Assembly: GCF_029589435.1 (NCBI RefSeq)
Contig: NZ_JARRAG010000001.1
Coordinates: 124,001-188,000, forward strand
DNA from: Paludisphaera mucosa
Lineage (GTDB): Bacteria > Planctomycetota > Planctomycetia > Isosphaerales > Isosphaeraceae
Direction: 5' to 3'
Length of the DNA stretch: 64,000 nt
This document shows positions 40,083-46,488 of this stretch, in pieces (position 1 is the first letter of the stretch; every line of letters starts with the position of its first letter). The notes below the pieces were generated by a model. That model did no database searches and was not told the origin of the DNA. It saw only the letters and a list, made by a program, of their open reading frames with translations. A program made the position numbers and the translations under genes.

Positions 40083-41462
40083 TCAGATCTCCCAGCCCTT
40101 GCGGTAGCTCCCCTTGAGGAGTGCGGAGGCGGCGGAGCTGTTGAGGATCCGGCCGGCGTCGCCGTCGTAGTCGATGGCCTCGCCGGTGCGCATGGCGATG
40201 TTGCCGAGCAGGATGGCCTCGGTCTGGACGGCCGCGTACTCGAAGTTCGAGTAGGCGATCTCGGGCTTGCCGGCGCGGATGGCCTGGAACCATTCGAGCT
40301 TGTGGTTGTCGTCGGTGTCGCCGCCCCCCTGGATCCGGGGGATGGTCGGCTTGGGGGCCTTGAAGTCCTTGAATCGCTCGTCGGGCCAGAGGCGGCGGCC
40401 GACCGACTCGCCGCGGGCCGATCCCATGGTCCCCTCGGCGCCGACGCAGACCCAGCCGTTGTCTTCGGGCTTGAAGCCCTCGGGGAAGAGGTGGGCCGGC
40501 GGCCGGTTGGGCTTGCCGTCCTTCGCCCCCTCGTACCAGGTGAGCTTGACCGGCGCGAGCTTGCCGCGCGCGGGGAACTCGTAGACGACCGTCGCCCAGG
40601 CGGGGAAGGTCTCGGGGTTGATCTCGCCGCTCTGGGCCGAGATCCGCCTGGGCAGGCCGAGCTTCAGGCCGTGGAACGGGATGTTGGTGTTGTGGCAGCC
40701 CATGTCGCCGAGGACGCCGGTCCCGAAGTCCCACCAGCCCCGCCAGAGCATGGGCGTGTAGACCGGGGCGAACGGCCGCTCGGGGGCGGCGGCGAGGAAG
40801 AGGTCCCAGTGCAGGTTCGCGGGGACCTCGAACGTCCCCTGCGGCCGCGCCGTGATCTCGGGCGCCTGCTTCCAGTAGACGCTGGGTCGGTCGGTCCAGA
40901 CGTGGACCTCGGTCACGTCGCCGAGCACGCCGGATTCGAGGATCTCGACGCTGGCGCGGAGGCCGTCGGCGGCCGAGCCCTGGTTGCCCATCTGGGTGCA
41001 GACGCCGTGCTTGCGGGCGGTCTCGCGCATCAGGCGGGCCTCCCACACGGTGTGGGTCAGCGGCTTCTGGCAGTAGACGTGCTTGCCCAGCCGCATCGCC
41101 GCGACCGACGCCGGCGCGTGGGTGTGGTCGGCCGTCGAGACGGTCACGGCGTCGATCTTGTCGCCCATCTGGGCGAACAGCTCGCGGAAGTCGTGGAAGC
41201 CCTTGGCGTCCTTGAACTTCGCCAGCTTCTCCTTGAGCGGGTCGTCGTCGACGTCGCAGAGCGCGACGACCTTGCCGTGGTTCCCCGCGTGGTCGGTGTC
41301 GCCGCCCCCCTTGCCGCCCACCCCGATGCAGGCCACCTGGATGACGTCGTTCGGCCCGACGCCCGCCGCCCGGCCGTTGCGGCCCTGGCAGAAGACCCCG
41401 AACCCCGCGAGCGAGGCCCCGTACAGGAACGCGCGACGGTCCATTCCCTGCTGCGTGGTCAT
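40083..41462 (-). CDS. Tat-exported Gfo/Idh/MocA-family oxidoreductase
   Basis: 459 residues, ATG at 41462. The N-terminus MDRRAFLYGASLAG is a twin-arginine signal, so it is folded with its cofactor before export. Then the Rossmann start IQVACIGVGGKGG, the DVDDD acidic loop, the catalytic-strand EKPxxx motif in the form YCQKPLTHTVWEARLM, and GVLGDMGCHNTNIPFHGLKLGLP. Typical planctomycete Gfo/Idh with NAD(P); the sugar substrate is unknown. Starts opposite the radical SAM gene across 398 bases. Confidence 0.93.
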   Translation of the reverse strand: MTTQQGMDRRAFLYGASLAGFGVFCQGRNGRAAGVGPNDVIQVACIGVGGKGGGDTDHAGNHGKVVALCDVDDDPLKEKLAKFKDAKGFHDFRELFAQMGDKIDAVTVSTADHTHAPASVAAMRLGKHVYCQKPLTHTVWEARLMRETARKHGVCTQMGNQGSAADGLRASVEILESGVLGDVTEVHVWTDRPSVYWKQAPEITARPQGTFEVPANLHWDLFLAAAPERPFAPVYTPMLWRGWWDFGTGVLGDMGCHNTNIPFHGLKLGLPRRISAQSGEINPETFPAWATVVYEFPARGKLAPVKLTWYEGAKDGKPNRPPAHLFPEGFKPEDNGWVCVGAEGTMGSARGESVGRRLWPDERFKDFKAPKPTIPRIQGGGDTDDNHKLEWFQAIRAGKPEIAYSNFEYAAVQTEAILLGNIAMRTGEAIDYDGDAGRILNSSAASALLKGSYRKGWEI

Positions 41463-41860
41463 GGGTGAGACTCCCCGGTGGGTGAAGGAGGGCGGGATGC
41501 GCCGGCCCGCGGCGCGAGGCGGCGGGCCGGCGTCAGGCCCACCATAGCGCGCGGCGAGGCGCGACGCCAAGGAATTCCCGACCGCCGCGATCCGCGACCG
41601 CCCACGCTTTGGGACGAAGGCGACGACGAGATCCGCCCGCGACGTTGTCCCGTGGAAGGTAGCTTACCCGCTCGATGCGCCGTCGATCCTTCCGCGGATC
41701 TGGCGGCGGAGCCTCGCAGCCGACCACGGCCGACGCCTGGGCGGTGCCGGATCGTCAGACGCCCGGCCCCGCGACCTCGACGGTGGACGACCGCGAGATC
41801 GTTCGACCAACTGCGACCCGCGGCAGCGTTGCCGCGCACGATCGCATCAGGAGCTCGTCG
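41463..41860. other. 398-base divergent intergenic region
   Basis: Between the starts of the Gfo/Idh and radical SAM genes. The plus frame is open back to 41675, so a longer radical SAM N-terminus is possible, but the residues are not conserved-looking. No strong promoter or repeat found by eye. Confidence 0.5.
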
Positions 41861-43633
41861 ATGAGCCCAGTGAACGCGCAGATCGATCGCCCGTCCCCGA
41901 CGCTCAGCCTGCATCCTCGCGGGCGACGGGCGAAGGTGCTGCTGGCCAGCGTGTGCGGCCCCTACGCCCAAGACGACGAGCACGGCAGCCGCTCGCTCAA
42001 CCCCATGGAGCTGTATCACAACCAGGTCACGCGCGTGCAGGGGCCGTTCTCGCTCCGCATGTTCCACCGCAGCTGGGGGCTGATGCTGATCCAGGCCAAC
42101 CTGACGGCCCCGTGCACGGTCCTCGACTTCCCGACCTGGGAGCGGTTCGAGGAGGAACTCCGCGGGGGCGACTACGACGTCGTGGGGATCAGCAGCATCG
42201 TCCTGAATCAGCACAAGGTCCGGACCATGTGCGAGATGGTGCGCCGCCACCTGCCGAACGCGACCATCGTCATCGGGGGGCACATCGCCAACGTGCCGGA
42301 CCTGGCGGATCGAGTCGACGCCGATCATATCGTCCGCGGCGACGGCGTGTCGTGGTTCCGGCGGTTTCTGGACGACCAGGTGGACGAGCCCCTGCGCCAC
42401 CCGTTGATCGTCTCGGGCTTCGGCGCCCGCTGCATGGGGATGAAAGTCGAGGGGAGGCCGGAGGACACCGCGGCCACCCTGATCCCCTCCGTCGGCTGCC
42501 CGCTCGGCTGCAACTTCTGCTCGACGTCGGCCATGTTTGGCGGCAAGGGCAAGTCGGTGGACTTCTACAAGACGGGCGACGAGCTGTTCGACATCATGCA
42601 CCAGCTCTCCACGAGCATGAAGGTGCGCTCGTTCTTCATCATGGACGAGAACTTCCTGCTCCAGCGCAGCCGCGCCCTGCGCGTGTTGGAGCTGATGGAA
42701 CGCCACCGCAAGCCCTGGTCGCTGTACGTGTTCAGCTCCGCCAACGCCCTGAGGCGTTACACCCTGGAAGAGCTGGTGAGGATCGGCGTGTCGTGGGTCT
42801 GGATGGGGCTGGAGGGCGAGGAGAGCGCGTACAAGAAGCTCTCCGGGGTCGACACGTTCGGGCTGGTCCGCGGCCTGCAAAGCCACGGCATCCGGGTCCT
42901 GGGCTCGAGCATCATCGGCCTGGAAGACCACAGCCCCGAGAACATCGATCGCGTGATCGCGCACTCGGTGCGGCATCGGACGGACTTCCATCAGTACATG
43001 CTTTATACGCCGATCCCGGGCACGCCCCTGCACGCCGAGCTTTCGGCCGCCGGCCGCCTGCTGACCGACTCGGAGTGCGACCCGGCCGACGTGCACGGCC
43101 AATCGGTGTTCAACTACCGCCATTCCTCGCTCCCCCCGGGAGTCGAGGGCGAGCTGATGGTGCGGGCCTTCACGCGCGATTTCGAGCAGAACGGGCCGAG
43201 CGTCGTGCGGATCGCCGAGACGACGCTCGCGGGCTGGCTCCGCCACAAGTCGCACCCCGACCCGCGCGTCCGCGATCGCATGAAGTGGGAGGCGCGGCCG
43301 CTGTCGTCGAGCTACGCGGCCATGGTGGCGGCCGCCCGACTCTATTTCCGCGATCGTCCGGACCTCCACGCCAGGATGGACCGCCTGCTCGGCGACCTGA
43401 TCCGCGAATTCGGCTGGAAGGCCCGGGCGTCGGCGGCCCTCGGCGGCCGCCTGCTGCACTGGACCTCCCGGCGCGAGGCCGACCGCCTGGCCCGCGGCTG
43501 GTCCTACGAGCCGGACACGTTCTACGAGGTGAACGAGGCGGCCGCCGCACAGCCCCGGCGACGCCGCGCCGCGCTCTGCCGGAGCGTCGGCTGCTCCGCG
43601 ACGTCGTCCCCGGCGGCTGAGGCGCACTCCTGA
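41861..43633 (+). CDS. B12-binding radical SAM protein, substrate unknown
   Basis: 590 residues from the ATG at 41861, with AGGAG upstream. Residues about 25-175 look like a cobalamin-binding domain (YDVVGISSIVLNQHKVRTMCEMVRRHLPNATIVIGG). The radical SAM cluster is C213-P-L-G-C217-N-F-C220, followed by FFIMDENFLLQ, and GVSWVWMGLEGEES for the core barrel. Residues 420-550 carry a C-terminal domain. Such proteins do methylation or rearrangement chemistry; no pathway partner is next door. Oxygen-sensitive Fe-S enzyme expected. Confidence 0.88.
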   Translation: MSPVNAQIDRPSPTLSLHPRGRRAKVLLASVCGPYAQDDEHGSRSLNPMELYHNQVTRVQGPFSLRMFHRSWGLMLIQANLTAPCTVLDFPTWERFEEELRGGDYDVVGISSIVLNQHKVRTMCEMVRRHLPNATIVIGGHIANVPDLADRVDADHIVRGDGVSWFRRFLDDQVDEPLRHPLIVSGFGARCMGMKVEGRPEDTAATLIPSVGCPLGCNFCSTSAMFGGKGKSVDFYKTGDELFDIMHQLSTSMKVRSFFIMDENFLLQRSRALRVLELMERHRKPWSLYVFSSANALRRYTLEELVRIGVSWVWMGLEGEESAYKKLSGVDTFGLVRGLQSHGIRVLGSSIIGLEDHSPENIDRVIAHSVRHRTDFHQYMLYTPIPGTPLHAELSAAGRLLTDSECDPADVHGQSVFNYRHSSLPPGVEGELMVRAFTRDFEQNGPSVVRIAETTLAGWLRHKSHPDPRVRDRMKWEARPLSSSYAAMVAAARLYFRDRPDLHARMDRLLGDLIREFGWKARASAALGGRLLHWTSRREADRLARGWSYEPDTFYEVNEAAAAQPRRRRAALCRSVGCSATSSPAAEAHS

Positions 43634-43697: not shown

Positions 43698-44060
43698 TCA
43701 CGGCTCGCCGCCATGCCAGTCGAATCCGCACCAGAAGCACTGGCGGGCCTTCGGCGTGCGGACGACCCGTCGGCATTTCGGGCAACGGTTCACGAACGAC
43801 TCGTCGGCCGCTTCGGCCAGGACCCGCTTGCAGACGCGACGGCGGAACGCTTCCGGACCGTCCGTCAGTGCGGCGTTGATTTCGGGGTCGTCGGTCCGCC
43901 CCCACCTGACGGCCAGGGGGTGGTCCGGCTTCGCCCCGATCAGGGCGGCCTTCTCTCGGCCGACGATCGCGCTCCCAACCCTTCGCTCGTCGTCGGTCAT
44001 CCGGGCCCGAAAGTGGCTCCAGACGTACCGGGTCAACTCGTGATCGTCCTCGTACTCCAC
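43698..44060 (-). CDS. Small protein with C-terminal zinc-ribbon
   Basis: 120 residues, GTG at 44060 preceded by GAGGG at spacing 9, only 17 bases after the kinase stop, so co-transcribed. The N-terminal part is charged (EDDHELTRYVWSHFRARMTDDERR). The C-terminus CPKCRRVVRTPKARQCFWCGFDWH is a four-cysteine zinc ribbon. Function unknown; the location suggests a substrate, adaptor or regulator of the kinase (inference). Confidence 0.75.
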   Translation of the reverse strand: MEYEDDHELTRYVWSHFRARMTDDERRVGSAIVGREKAALIGAKPDHPLAVRWGRTDDPEINAALTDGPEAFRRRVCKRVLAEAADESFVNRCPKCRRVVRTPKARQCFWCGFDWHGGEP

Positions 44061-44077
44061 CTGCGGTTGCCCTCGGA

Positions 44078-45748
44078 TCAGCCTTGAGGGTCGACCCGGG
44101 CGAGGGCTTCCTGGACGTCCTTGAGCTTCACCGGCTTGGACAGGACGACCTGGTCGTCGGCGGCGGGGAGCTTGTCCTTGAGGGCGCCCTGGCGGGGGCC
44201 GAGGAGGACCACGACCCGGAACGGGTGGGCGGCTTCGCGGGCCTTGTCGCGCATGTCCTTCAGGTGTTCGAGGGCGCCGGAGCCCAGGCCGTCGAGGTCG
44301 AAGAGGACGACGTCGGTCGGCCGTTCGCGGTAGCGTTCGGCGGCGTGCTCGGCGTCGGCGATCAGCAGCACGCGATAGCCCTTGCGCGCCAGGTTCTTCC
44401 GCAGCGCGTCCTGGATCTCGGCCTGGGACTCGACGCAGAGCAGGCTGCGCCGGGCGTCGGCCGGGGTCTCGACCTCGGCGGGCGCGGGGGACGCCGCGGC
44501 CGCCGCAGGGCGGGCTTCGGGCTCCTCGGCGGGCGCGAGGCCCAGCAGGGCCCCCAGGTCGGTGGCCTCGTCGCTCTTGCGGGAGTCGAACCCGTCCAGG
44601 TCGAGCGCCATGGCTTCTTCGGCGGTCGCGTCCGGGGGCGCGTCGGGGTCGTTGGTGAGGAACGGGTTGCGGAAGATCGCGCTCCCCAGCTCGGGGTCGA
44701 GTTCCAGCTCGTGGTCGGACTCGGGCGGGGCGGCCCCGGCCCGGCGGCGGTCGCGATAGGTTTCCAGGTCGGCGGCGACCTCGGCCATGGTCTGGTAGCG
44801 GGCCTTGAGGTCCATCTTCATCATCTTCTCGACGATCCGGCTCAGGCCGGGGTCGGGGGCGTAGGCGTGCTCGGCGAGGGGGCGGATGACGCCGAACGAG
44901 CGTTTGAGCATCTTCTTGAGCGGGTCCTTGCTCTCCGAGTCTTCCAGGGGCACCTGGCCGGTGAGCATGTGGTAGAAGACGCAGCCCAGGAAGTAGACGT
45001 CGGAGCGGGGGTCCCCCTTGGGGCTGCCGCATGAGCGTTCGAGGGCGGAGTAGTCGACGGTCCGCTGGCTCTTCATCCCCTTGCCGTCGTTGGTCTCGAT
45101 GGTCGCCAGGCCGAAGTCGACGAGCTTGGCGACGCCCGAGTTGGCGATCAGGATGTTCGTCGCCTTGATGTCGCGGTGGGTCACGCCGTGCTCGTGCGAG
45201 TACTTCAGGCCCTCCGCCAGGCCGACCATCAGGGGGAGGGCCTCGTCCCCCTTGAGGCGGAGCCGGAGGCGGAGGAACTCGCGGAGGTTCATCCCCTCGA
45301 CGTACTCCATCGCCATGTAGTGCTTGTCCTCCTGGCGACCGGAGTCCAGGATGTGGACGATGTTGTCGTGCCGCAGCCGCATGCCGGCCTCGGCCTCCTT
45401 GTGGAACGACGCCACGGCCGCCGGGTCGGAGGCGAACCGGCCCCGCAAAACCTTGATCGCGACCGGCTCGCCGCTGTGCGACCGCTCGCCGCGGTAGACC
45501 CGGGCGAAGGTCCCCTCGGCCAGGTGGAAGAGGGCCCGATACGGCCCGAAGAAGAAGTTCGAGGCGTCGCCCTTGCGCAGGCGCTCGACCTGCCAGCTCG
45601 TGATCCAGCCCTTGCGCAGGCACGAGCGGACGACCGCCTCGGGCGAGCCGTCCTCGGCGTCGGCCCGGGCCTCGCGGAGCTGGTCGCGGGAGATCAGGCC
45701 GATGAGCGTCAGCTGATCGACGAGCGACGCGACGTCGTGTTCCGGCAT
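44078..45748 (-). CDS. Ser/Thr protein kinase with C-terminal receiver-like domain
   Basis: 556 residues. N-terminal 60 residues are a planctomycete kinase leader (LTLIGLISRDQLREA, SCLRKGWITSWQVERL). Kinase domain about 70-345: Gly-loop AEGTFARVYRG, ATP Lys99, catalytic HRD 191-193 with Asn198, DFG 211-213. A Pro/Ala linker follows. Residues about 430-555 have receiver topology (CVESQAEIQDALRKNL, VVLFDLDGLG with candidate phospho-Asp484, VLSKPVK). The acidic pair is reduced to one Glu, and the usual Thr/Ser after strand 4 reads Gly-Pro (LLGPR), so it may be a pseudo-receiver. An uncommon combination of Hanks kinase and two-component module. No membrane segment. Confidence 0.9.
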   Translation of the reverse strand: MPEHDVASLVDQLTLIGLISRDQLREARADAEDGSPEAVVRSCLRKGWITSWQVERLRKGDASNFFFGPYRALFHLAEGTFARVYRGERSHSGEPVAIKVLRGRFASDPAAVASFHKEAEAGMRLRHDNIVHILDSGRQEDKHYMAMEYVEGMNLREFLRLRLRLKGDEALPLMVGLAEGLKYSHEHGVTHRDIKATNILIANSGVAKLVDFGLATIETNDGKGMKSQRTVDYSALERSCGSPKGDPRSDVYFLGCVFYHMLTGQVPLEDSESKDPLKKMLKRSFGVIRPLAEHAYAPDPGLSRIVEKMMKMDLKARYQTMAEVAADLETYRDRRRAGAAPPESDHELELDPELGSAIFRNPFLTNDPDAPPDATAEEAMALDLDGFDSRKSDEATDLGALLGLAPAEEPEARPAAAAASPAPAEVETPADARRSLLCVESQAEIQDALRKNLARKGYRVLLIADAEHAAERYRERPTDVVLFDLDGLGSGALEHLKDMRDKAREAAHPFRVVVLLGPRQGALKDKLPAADDQVVLSKPVKLKDVQEALARVDPQG

Positions 45749-46125: not shown

Positions 46126-46488
46126 ATGTACCATCCACCCGGACGAGCGCACGCGGCTCCGCTCGCGACGACGACCCCCGCCCCGGCGAAGGCGAAGCCG
46201 AAGGACGTCTCCCCGCCGCAGGAGGCCGAGAAGTCGGAATGGATGAACCGCCGCGCCAGCGAGCAGGCCTCGCGGGCCGCGCTCGCCCGCAATTCCAGCG
46301 GCCGGCGGCGGTACGTCGACCCCACGACCTGCGAGCGCGACTACAGCGAGGCCGAGCTGGAGTTCATGCTGGCCATGGACGCCTACAAGCAGCGCAGCGG
46401 CCGGATGTTCCCCACCTGGAGCGAGGTCCTGGAGGTCATCAAGAGCCTCGGCTACGAGAAGCCCGCCGAGGAAGGCCTGATCGACTGA
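46126..46488 (+). CDS. Small conserved-looking soluble protein
   Basis: 120 residues. The first 45 are low-complexity (Pro, Ala, Lys) and probably disordered; the second half is compact and looks structured: [20 protein letters not shown], then [20 protein letters not shown]. It resembles short planctomycete proteins with this WSEVLEV block, of unknown function. It is divergent from the kinase. Confidence 0.72.

Follow-up and report, generated by a model that had tools for sequence, protein, structure and literature searches.

A PknB-like Ser/Thr kinase with a tethered pseudo-receiver domain in the Planctomycetia

Most of the Planctomycetia examined appear to carry a Ser/Thr kinase that is tied to a receiver-like domain. 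The member described here is encoded in a window of 64,000 nucleotides from Paludisphaera mucosa, whose genome (G000) comprises 8.2 Mb in nine contigs. The gene occupies 44078..45748 (-) and specifies a protein of 556 residues from an ATG start, an assignment that draws on the open reading frame, Pfam and orthologues. The C-terminal domain is a genuine receiver fold. It is also a pseudo-receiver under the definition of Bourret et al. 2025 (PMC12632262), the available text of which applies the term to a recognised receiver that is without at least one of the residues DD, D, T and K. We lean, with some reserve, towards a role for this tethered pseudo-receiver as a regulatory or docking module of the PknB-like kinase, acting through the pocket in Isosphaeraceae and through the α1-β2-α2 face elsewhere.

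The protein begins with a domain of four helices (residues 1-66; 45551..45748 (-)), predicted by the structural model and without a Pfam match. The PknB-like kinase domain follows (residues 70-337; 44738..45541 (-)), as indicated by Pfam, motif counts and Foldseek. Pfam Pkinase covers residues 75-320 at 1.3e-45. All catalytic motifs of a Hanks-type Ser/Thr kinase are present in the window protein: K99, E118, HRD at 191-193, N198 and DFG at 211-213. Further kinase residues include T230 in the activation segment, E237, D250 and R317. A sequence-only reading of this DNA had described a complete Hanks kinase within the 556 residues, and the motif set bears this out. Of the 117 aligned rows, 116 have the HRD aspartate; only L179, from genus g6, is without it. 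PknB itself (1o6y) is the best Foldseek match to the domain, with E 1.4e-20. The best NCBIfam model is PknB_PASTA_kin (NF033483), yet the score of 220.5 bits against a cut-off of 450 places the protein outside the PASTA kinases. The resemblance to that group is confined to the kinase domain; no PASTA or transmembrane part was recognised, and the N-terminal helical domain and C-terminal receiver are found instead. The N-terminal helices also align in several paralogous kinases of G000, where tblastn alignments start at query residues 6, 13, 25 and 37. In all, 110 places in this genome resemble the kinase, and several of them have the same N-terminal helical domain.

The linker between kinase and receiver (residues 338-433; 44450..44737 (-)) is predicted to be disordered, with pLDDT below 50 over residues 343-352 and 354-431 of the full-length model. 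Its length among aligned members ranges from 9 to 128 in Isosphaeraceae (median 61) and from 10 to 36 elsewhere (median 24). The predicted disorder of the linker and its variable length speak for a tethered module. The linker of genus g1 contains a conserved-looking stretch, SD.EL..D.ELGSAIF.NPF.

The receiver domain (residues 434-556; 44081..44449 (-)) is identified by Pfam, phmmer, an AlphaFold model and Foldseek. The model of residues 432-556 has the secondary structure order E-H-E-H-E-H-E-H-E-H, which is the (βα)5 topology, at a mean pLDDT of 95.6. Pfam Response_reg matches residues 437-549 at 5.3e-5, under its gathering score. A phmmer search of residues 432-556 against the PDB returned 65 matches at E<=1. 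Among the 60 listed, 58 are named response regulators, receivers or receiver-bearing kinases, including the response regulator AdeR; the exceptions are the top-ranked match, a de novo protein, and Vps35 (E 0.52). The 50 matches listed by Foldseek are receivers or proteins with a receiver. One of these, 3kcn_B, is titled only adenylate cyclase of R. baltica and is counted among the proteins with a receiver. The C-terminal receiver proposed from sequence alone thus has the fold expected of it, and the reading in which the domain is not a receiver was ruled out by the fold and the structure matches. Within G000 the receiver profile finds one strong place (1.7e-56), and the next match is at 8.4e-8.

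Positions of the active-site residues were assigned in the full-length model. Asp484 (codon 44297..44299 (-)) ends the third strand, 480-484, and so takes the phospho-Asp (D) position; the residue had been nominated as a candidate beforehand, and it is invariant in 31 of 31 Isosphaeraceae. Glu440 (44429..44431 (-)) stands just after the first strand, 435-439, at DD1, and the alignment puts the non-acidic Ser441 next to it at DD2. Gly517 (44198..44200 (-)) stands just after the fourth strand, 511-516, at the Thr/Ser switch (T) position. Lys538 (44135..44137 (-)) comes just after the fifth strand, 533-537, at the K position, and the Lys538-Pro pair is kept. Of the marks of a true receiver, the window protein therefore has the phospho-Asp at the end of strand 3 and the Lys at the end of strand 5. 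It has neither the two acids after strand 1 nor the Thr/Ser at the end of strand 4, as had been suspected when a single acid of the usual pair and no clear switch residue were noted. An acid at DD2 is found in none of the 31 Isosphaeraceae. The domain is classed as a pseudo-receiver because DD2 and T are missing. It is not an aspartate-less receiver (ALR), whereas 67 of the 86 members outside Isosphaeraceae are. Two neighbouring positions were also compared. The K-3 residue is aromatic in 0 of 117 aligned rows, and T+1 is proline in 29 of 31 Isosphaeraceae, a position at which true receivers have mostly small residues according to the accessible part of PMC12632262.

The distribution of the protein was followed outward from Isosphaeraceae. 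Orthologues were sought at E<=1e-80 in 59 genomes, 37 from Isosphaeraceae and 22 from the rest of the class. The window protein has one match in each of 30 genomes, all of them Isosphaeraceae. The seven Isosphaeraceae genomes without an orthologue comprise three of genus g6 together with G008, G011, G015 and G026, which are 68-92% complete. Identity of the 29 orthologues to the window protein is 50-80% from end to end, which argues that the kinase–receiver protein is no chance open reading frame. At 1e-20, a profile built from 29 Isosphaeraceae receivers finds a match in 67 of the 148 genomes of the class that were scanned. The wider receiver profile A3, of 66 rows, reaches 194 of 198 Planctomycetia genomes at 1e-10. 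At E<=1e-25 it reaches 175 of 198, with 19 weaker and four without a match; these are counts of best profile E-values, and the kinase itself was checked in the 117 aligned proteins. In a sample of the phylum, A3 matches 130 of 195 genomes at 1e-10, 27 of the same class and 103 outside it. The best match outside the class is 3.3e-17, and most such matches lie in frames of other sizes. Kinase patterns were scanned against 84,980 genomes, one for each species; among the best 80 matches, 78 are titled as planctomycetes and two only as 'bacterium'. A recent or chance fusion was ruled out by class-wide occurrence and co-inheritance.

Comparison of complete members shows how the active site varies. 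The alignment holds 117 distinct complete proteins, 31 from Isosphaeraceae and 86 others, drawn from the 30 loci of the orthologue search and from 99 of 100 further loci (L180 had no match). Five incomplete proteins (L102, L119, L132, L133 and L155) were dropped. In L132 and L133 a long, charged and repeat-like region lies beyond the receiver-like stretch and reaches the end of the contig. All 31 Isosphaeraceae rows have D, K, an acid at DD1, Asp at D+2 and Gly at T. Outside this family D is kept in 19 of 86 rows and K in one, so that 18 rows have D without K; both are absent from 67. The Asp is replaced by Ser, Met, Asn or Cys. Lys or Arg occupies the K position in 12 of the 19 rows outside Isosphaeraceae with D and in none of the 67 without it (Fisher 3.3e-10, uncorrected for relatedness). 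Every row that retains Lys also has an acid at D+2; these are the 31 Isosphaeraceae rows and L137. Ser or Thr at the T position is found in 0 of 31 Isosphaeraceae, 9 of 19 other members with D and 12 of 67 without.

A tree was built from residues 1-338, with the receiver left out and seven paralogues as root, by a quick search with SH-aLRT support only. On this tree a single change accounts for the Asp state, and a single change likewise for the Lys state. The branch uniting the two Asp-less clades has SH-aLRT below 80, and L179 sits on a very long branch. As the fork between these two clades and a Gemmata-like clade (D, often R) is unsettled, one change is a minimum count. Asp and Lys are probably ancestral in the family, because the Isosphaeraceae and L137, which bear both, branch deep.

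The positions under constraint point to where the receiver may act. In Isosphaeraceae, nine of the 12 receiver positions that never vary fall within the four active-site loops, which make up 20 of 124 positions (p 2e-6), and in the 67 Asp-less members seven of nine positions conserved at >=90% lie on α1-β2-α2, which makes up 33 of 124 (p 0.0013); both p-values are descriptive, because the loop and face sets were chosen after the alignment had been viewed and the rows are related. The pocket of the Isosphaeraceae receiver is strongly constrained, though it has neither the second metal acid nor the Thr/Ser switch. Constraint on α1-β2-α2 matches Networks 2 and 6 as Bourret et al. describe them (PMC12632262). 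The fold and certain positions are retained class-wide.

The docking or regulatory role that we favour would work as follows. (i) A soluble PknB-like Ser/Thr kinase would have been inherited across most Planctomycetia. (ii) Its C-terminal pseudo-receiver, held on a flexible tether, would be descended from a phosphorylatable receiver. (iii) The receiver would bind a partner or ligand, or pair with itself, and in this way place or gate the kinase. (iv) In Isosphaeraceae it would act via the old active-site pocket (Glu440, Asp484, Asp486 and Lys538), without the usual Thr/Tyr switch. (v) In clades of the Pirellulales/Planctomycetales type the pocket may have been abandoned, and the α1-β2-α2 face would carry the conserved function. 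The fold, the residues, the distribution and co-inheritance, the single Asp change on the tree and the persistence of a kinase-free receiver in one genus are observed; that the receiver regulates the kinase, and that it does so by binding, we infer. No contact surface between kinase and receiver emerged from the full-length model (pTM 0.65), which counts against the proposal.

That Asp and Lys never vary in Isosphaeraceae is just as compatible with phosphorylation, and on this account a canonical phospho-switch stays a live rival for that family. A histidine kinase or phosphotransfer protein would phosphorylate Asp484 and thereby switch the Ser/Thr kinase, with another ligand in place of DD2. 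Such a working phospho-receiver, which we consider unlikely but a serious contender, is consistent with the retention of Asp484, Lys538, Glu440 and the D+2 residue Asp486 in all 31 Isosphaeraceae and in three receiver-only proteins of genus g6. The invariant loop positions would mark a pocket in use, and the confinement of Lys or Arg to rows with Asp points the same way. Against it stand the absence of the DD2 acid and of Thr/Ser from all 31 members, the non-aromatic K-3 residue throughout the alignment, and the proline at T+1. The same evidence divides the sequence-only suggestion of a link between eukaryote-like and two-component signalling. Asp484 could still be used in this way in Isosphaeraceae, since Asp and Lys are invariant there. 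As a general link between the two kinds of signalling the suggestion fares worse, in view of the missing DD2, switch and K-3 aromatic residues and the loss of both Asp and Lys from 67 of the 86 other members.

A related and more speculative proposal is that Isosphaeraceae have rebuilt a putative phosphate or metal site, in which the D+2 acid of the FDxDG motif replaces DD2. This motif may be likened to the DxD of HAD phosphatases. A phosphodonor or phosphorylated ligand would still charge Asp484, whose state would be read without a Thr/Tyr switch, and the domain would signal to partners other than its own kinase. We hold this to be doubtful. It would explain why K occurs only with an acidic D+2, and why genus g6 keeps the pocket without the kinase.

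The receivers of genus g6 are instructive in themselves. In G010 the locus (L179:7091-8647, (-)) encodes a 519-residue pseudokinase form in which HRDIK has become HGAIR and the glycine loop is gone; its receiver keeps D, DxD and K. All other examined genomes of the genus (G027, G036 and G378) have an open frame of 192 codons that specifies linker and receiver only, with no room for a kinase. In G010 the pseudokinase is preceded by a gene that also lies upstream of these frames, at a distance of 81-116 bases, and D and K are kept in all three. Because G036 and G378 are near copies, the three genomes represent one evolutionary event. The receiver outlived its kinase, which means that it has a job of its own and is worth keeping alone. 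It must therefore do more than regulate the attached kinase.

Two further explanations are weakened by these observations. In one, Ser/Thr residues of the receiver or linker are targets of the attached kinase, and autophosphorylation makes the receiver a docking site. Ser/Thr kinases do phosphorylate response regulators on Thr, as the title of a paper on CovR cited in PMC4395418 indicates. Nevertheless, the Isosphaeraceae receiver columns contain no invariant Ser/Thr, the linker is conserved in neither length nor sequence, and receivers persist without a kinase, so that we think this improbable. In the other, the receiver is a functionless vestige, as the loss of active-site residues from 67 of 86 members outside Isosphaeraceae might suggest; the class-wide retention of the fold and of certain positions, and a receiver that outlasted the kinase in g6, make this very improbable.

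The gene neighbourhood contributes little to the function of the kinase. A zinc-ribbon gene lies 17 bases downstream on the same strand (43698..44060 (-); 120 aa, GTG start), and the open reading frames and two CxxC knuckles confirm the earlier description of it. The pattern NRCPRC..RTP.A.QCFWCG.DWH, or nearly so, occurs in seven of eight homologues examined. Both proteins are real and conserved, and a dedicated kinase–substrate pair had been envisaged. The zinc-ribbon protein is, however, probably no partner of the kinase: at the other 29 loci with an orthologue, no homologue adjoins the kinase within the roughly 0.7-1.5 kb of downstream flank that was read, and 9 of 59 genomes, G000 among them, have a homologue, compared with 30 of the same 59 for the kinase. 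In G005, of the same genus, the oxidoreductase gene found at 40083-41570 of the window directly follows the kinase, and the genes between them in the window are absent from this site. The zinc-ribbon and radical-SAM genes were thus either inserted in the window or lost in G005. Taken together, these points make the pairing scarcely credible.

The radical-SAM gene (41675-43633 (+)) lies between the zinc-ribbon and oxidoreductase genes and encodes a B12-binding/radical-SAM protein (Pfam 8e-9 and 1.1e-8); it is absent near the kinase in four loci of the same genus. A divergent gene on the other side (46126-46488 (+)) encodes a 120-aa protein without a Pfam match above cut-off. A homologue of it adjoins the kinase in 9 of 116 loci, the window included, and these are Isosphaeraceae loci. 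A promoter and terminator scan gave no signal exceeding that of shuffled sequences. When the neighbours of 116 loci were clustered, no gene was found beside the kinase class-wide, and a shared operon was rejected as a clue to function. The largest cluster, in 31 loci, is a large divergent gene, of which a tested piece of 525 residues has no Pfam match. A small coiled-coil-like protein is encoded just upstream of the kinase and co-directionally in 24 of 116 loci (for example L105, L098 and L113). It has an invariant stretch, RRRRI..VQ.A..QLRLDMKYL.FDLEATRRERD, and is present in 101 of 148 class genomes; in G000 it lies far from the kinase (G000:C2:2825270). It is a possible partner of the kinase in Pirellulales.

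Several known systems resemble the planctomycete family in part. The CikA pseudo-receiver lies at the C-terminus of a kinase, and its structure (2j48) ranks 36th among the 50 Foldseek matches listed for the window domain; CikA, however, is a clock histidine kinase from cyanobacteria. Bacterial pseudo-receivers and aspartate-less receivers of the PF00072 type, as portrayed in the accessible parts of PMC12632262 and PMC4395418, share the (βα)5 fold, active-site losses and constraint on α1-β2-α2. The planctomycete receiver differs in being joined to a Hanks kinase and not to a DNA-binding output, and in forming a graded series within one family. Fungal Rim15 is a Ser/Thr kinase with a C-terminal receiver that lost the phospho-Asp in Ascomycota and kept it in others (PMC8510515 and PMC12632262, in the sections available). 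It has in common with the planctomycete family the architecture, the division into clades that kept or lost the Asp, and a receiver whose mechanism is open; non-Ascomycota Rim15 also has no aromatic residue at K-3. But Rim15 is a eukaryotic Greatwall-type PAS kinase, and the likeness is an analogy of architecture only. The fungal Asp mostly gave way to Glu, unlike the replacements in planctomycetes, and the loss of DD2 and T from all Isosphaeraceae members is a further difference.

No description of the planctomycete kinase–receiver family was found in the literature searched, although the taxon lists of aspartate-less architectures in PMC4395418 may contain an entry. The available text of the kinase survey PMC11032199 has 0 occurrences of 'receiver', and in the portions at hand PMC4807772 and PMC1183210 give no more than numbers of kinases and regulators. 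The family may have been overlooked because the Pfam receiver model is reached at E<=0.01 by only 27 of 69 members. For genome annotation, this is a widespread kinase whose receiver often falls under the Pfam model.

The family offers a bacterial counterpart of the Rim15 architecture, with the same split between Asp-kept and Asp-lost clades. Should the Isosphaeraceae pocket prove to be charged in the absence of DD2 and Thr, the chemistry of receivers would extend beyond the textbook five residues. How pseudo-receivers switch is described as an open question in the accessible text of PMC12632262. Here one apparently class-wide family displays the steps in order: Asp with Lys, Asp with Lys changed to Arg or other residues, both lost, and finally a receiver freed from its kinase. 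It thereby provides a natural series for asking how receiver-like domains work without phosphorylation.
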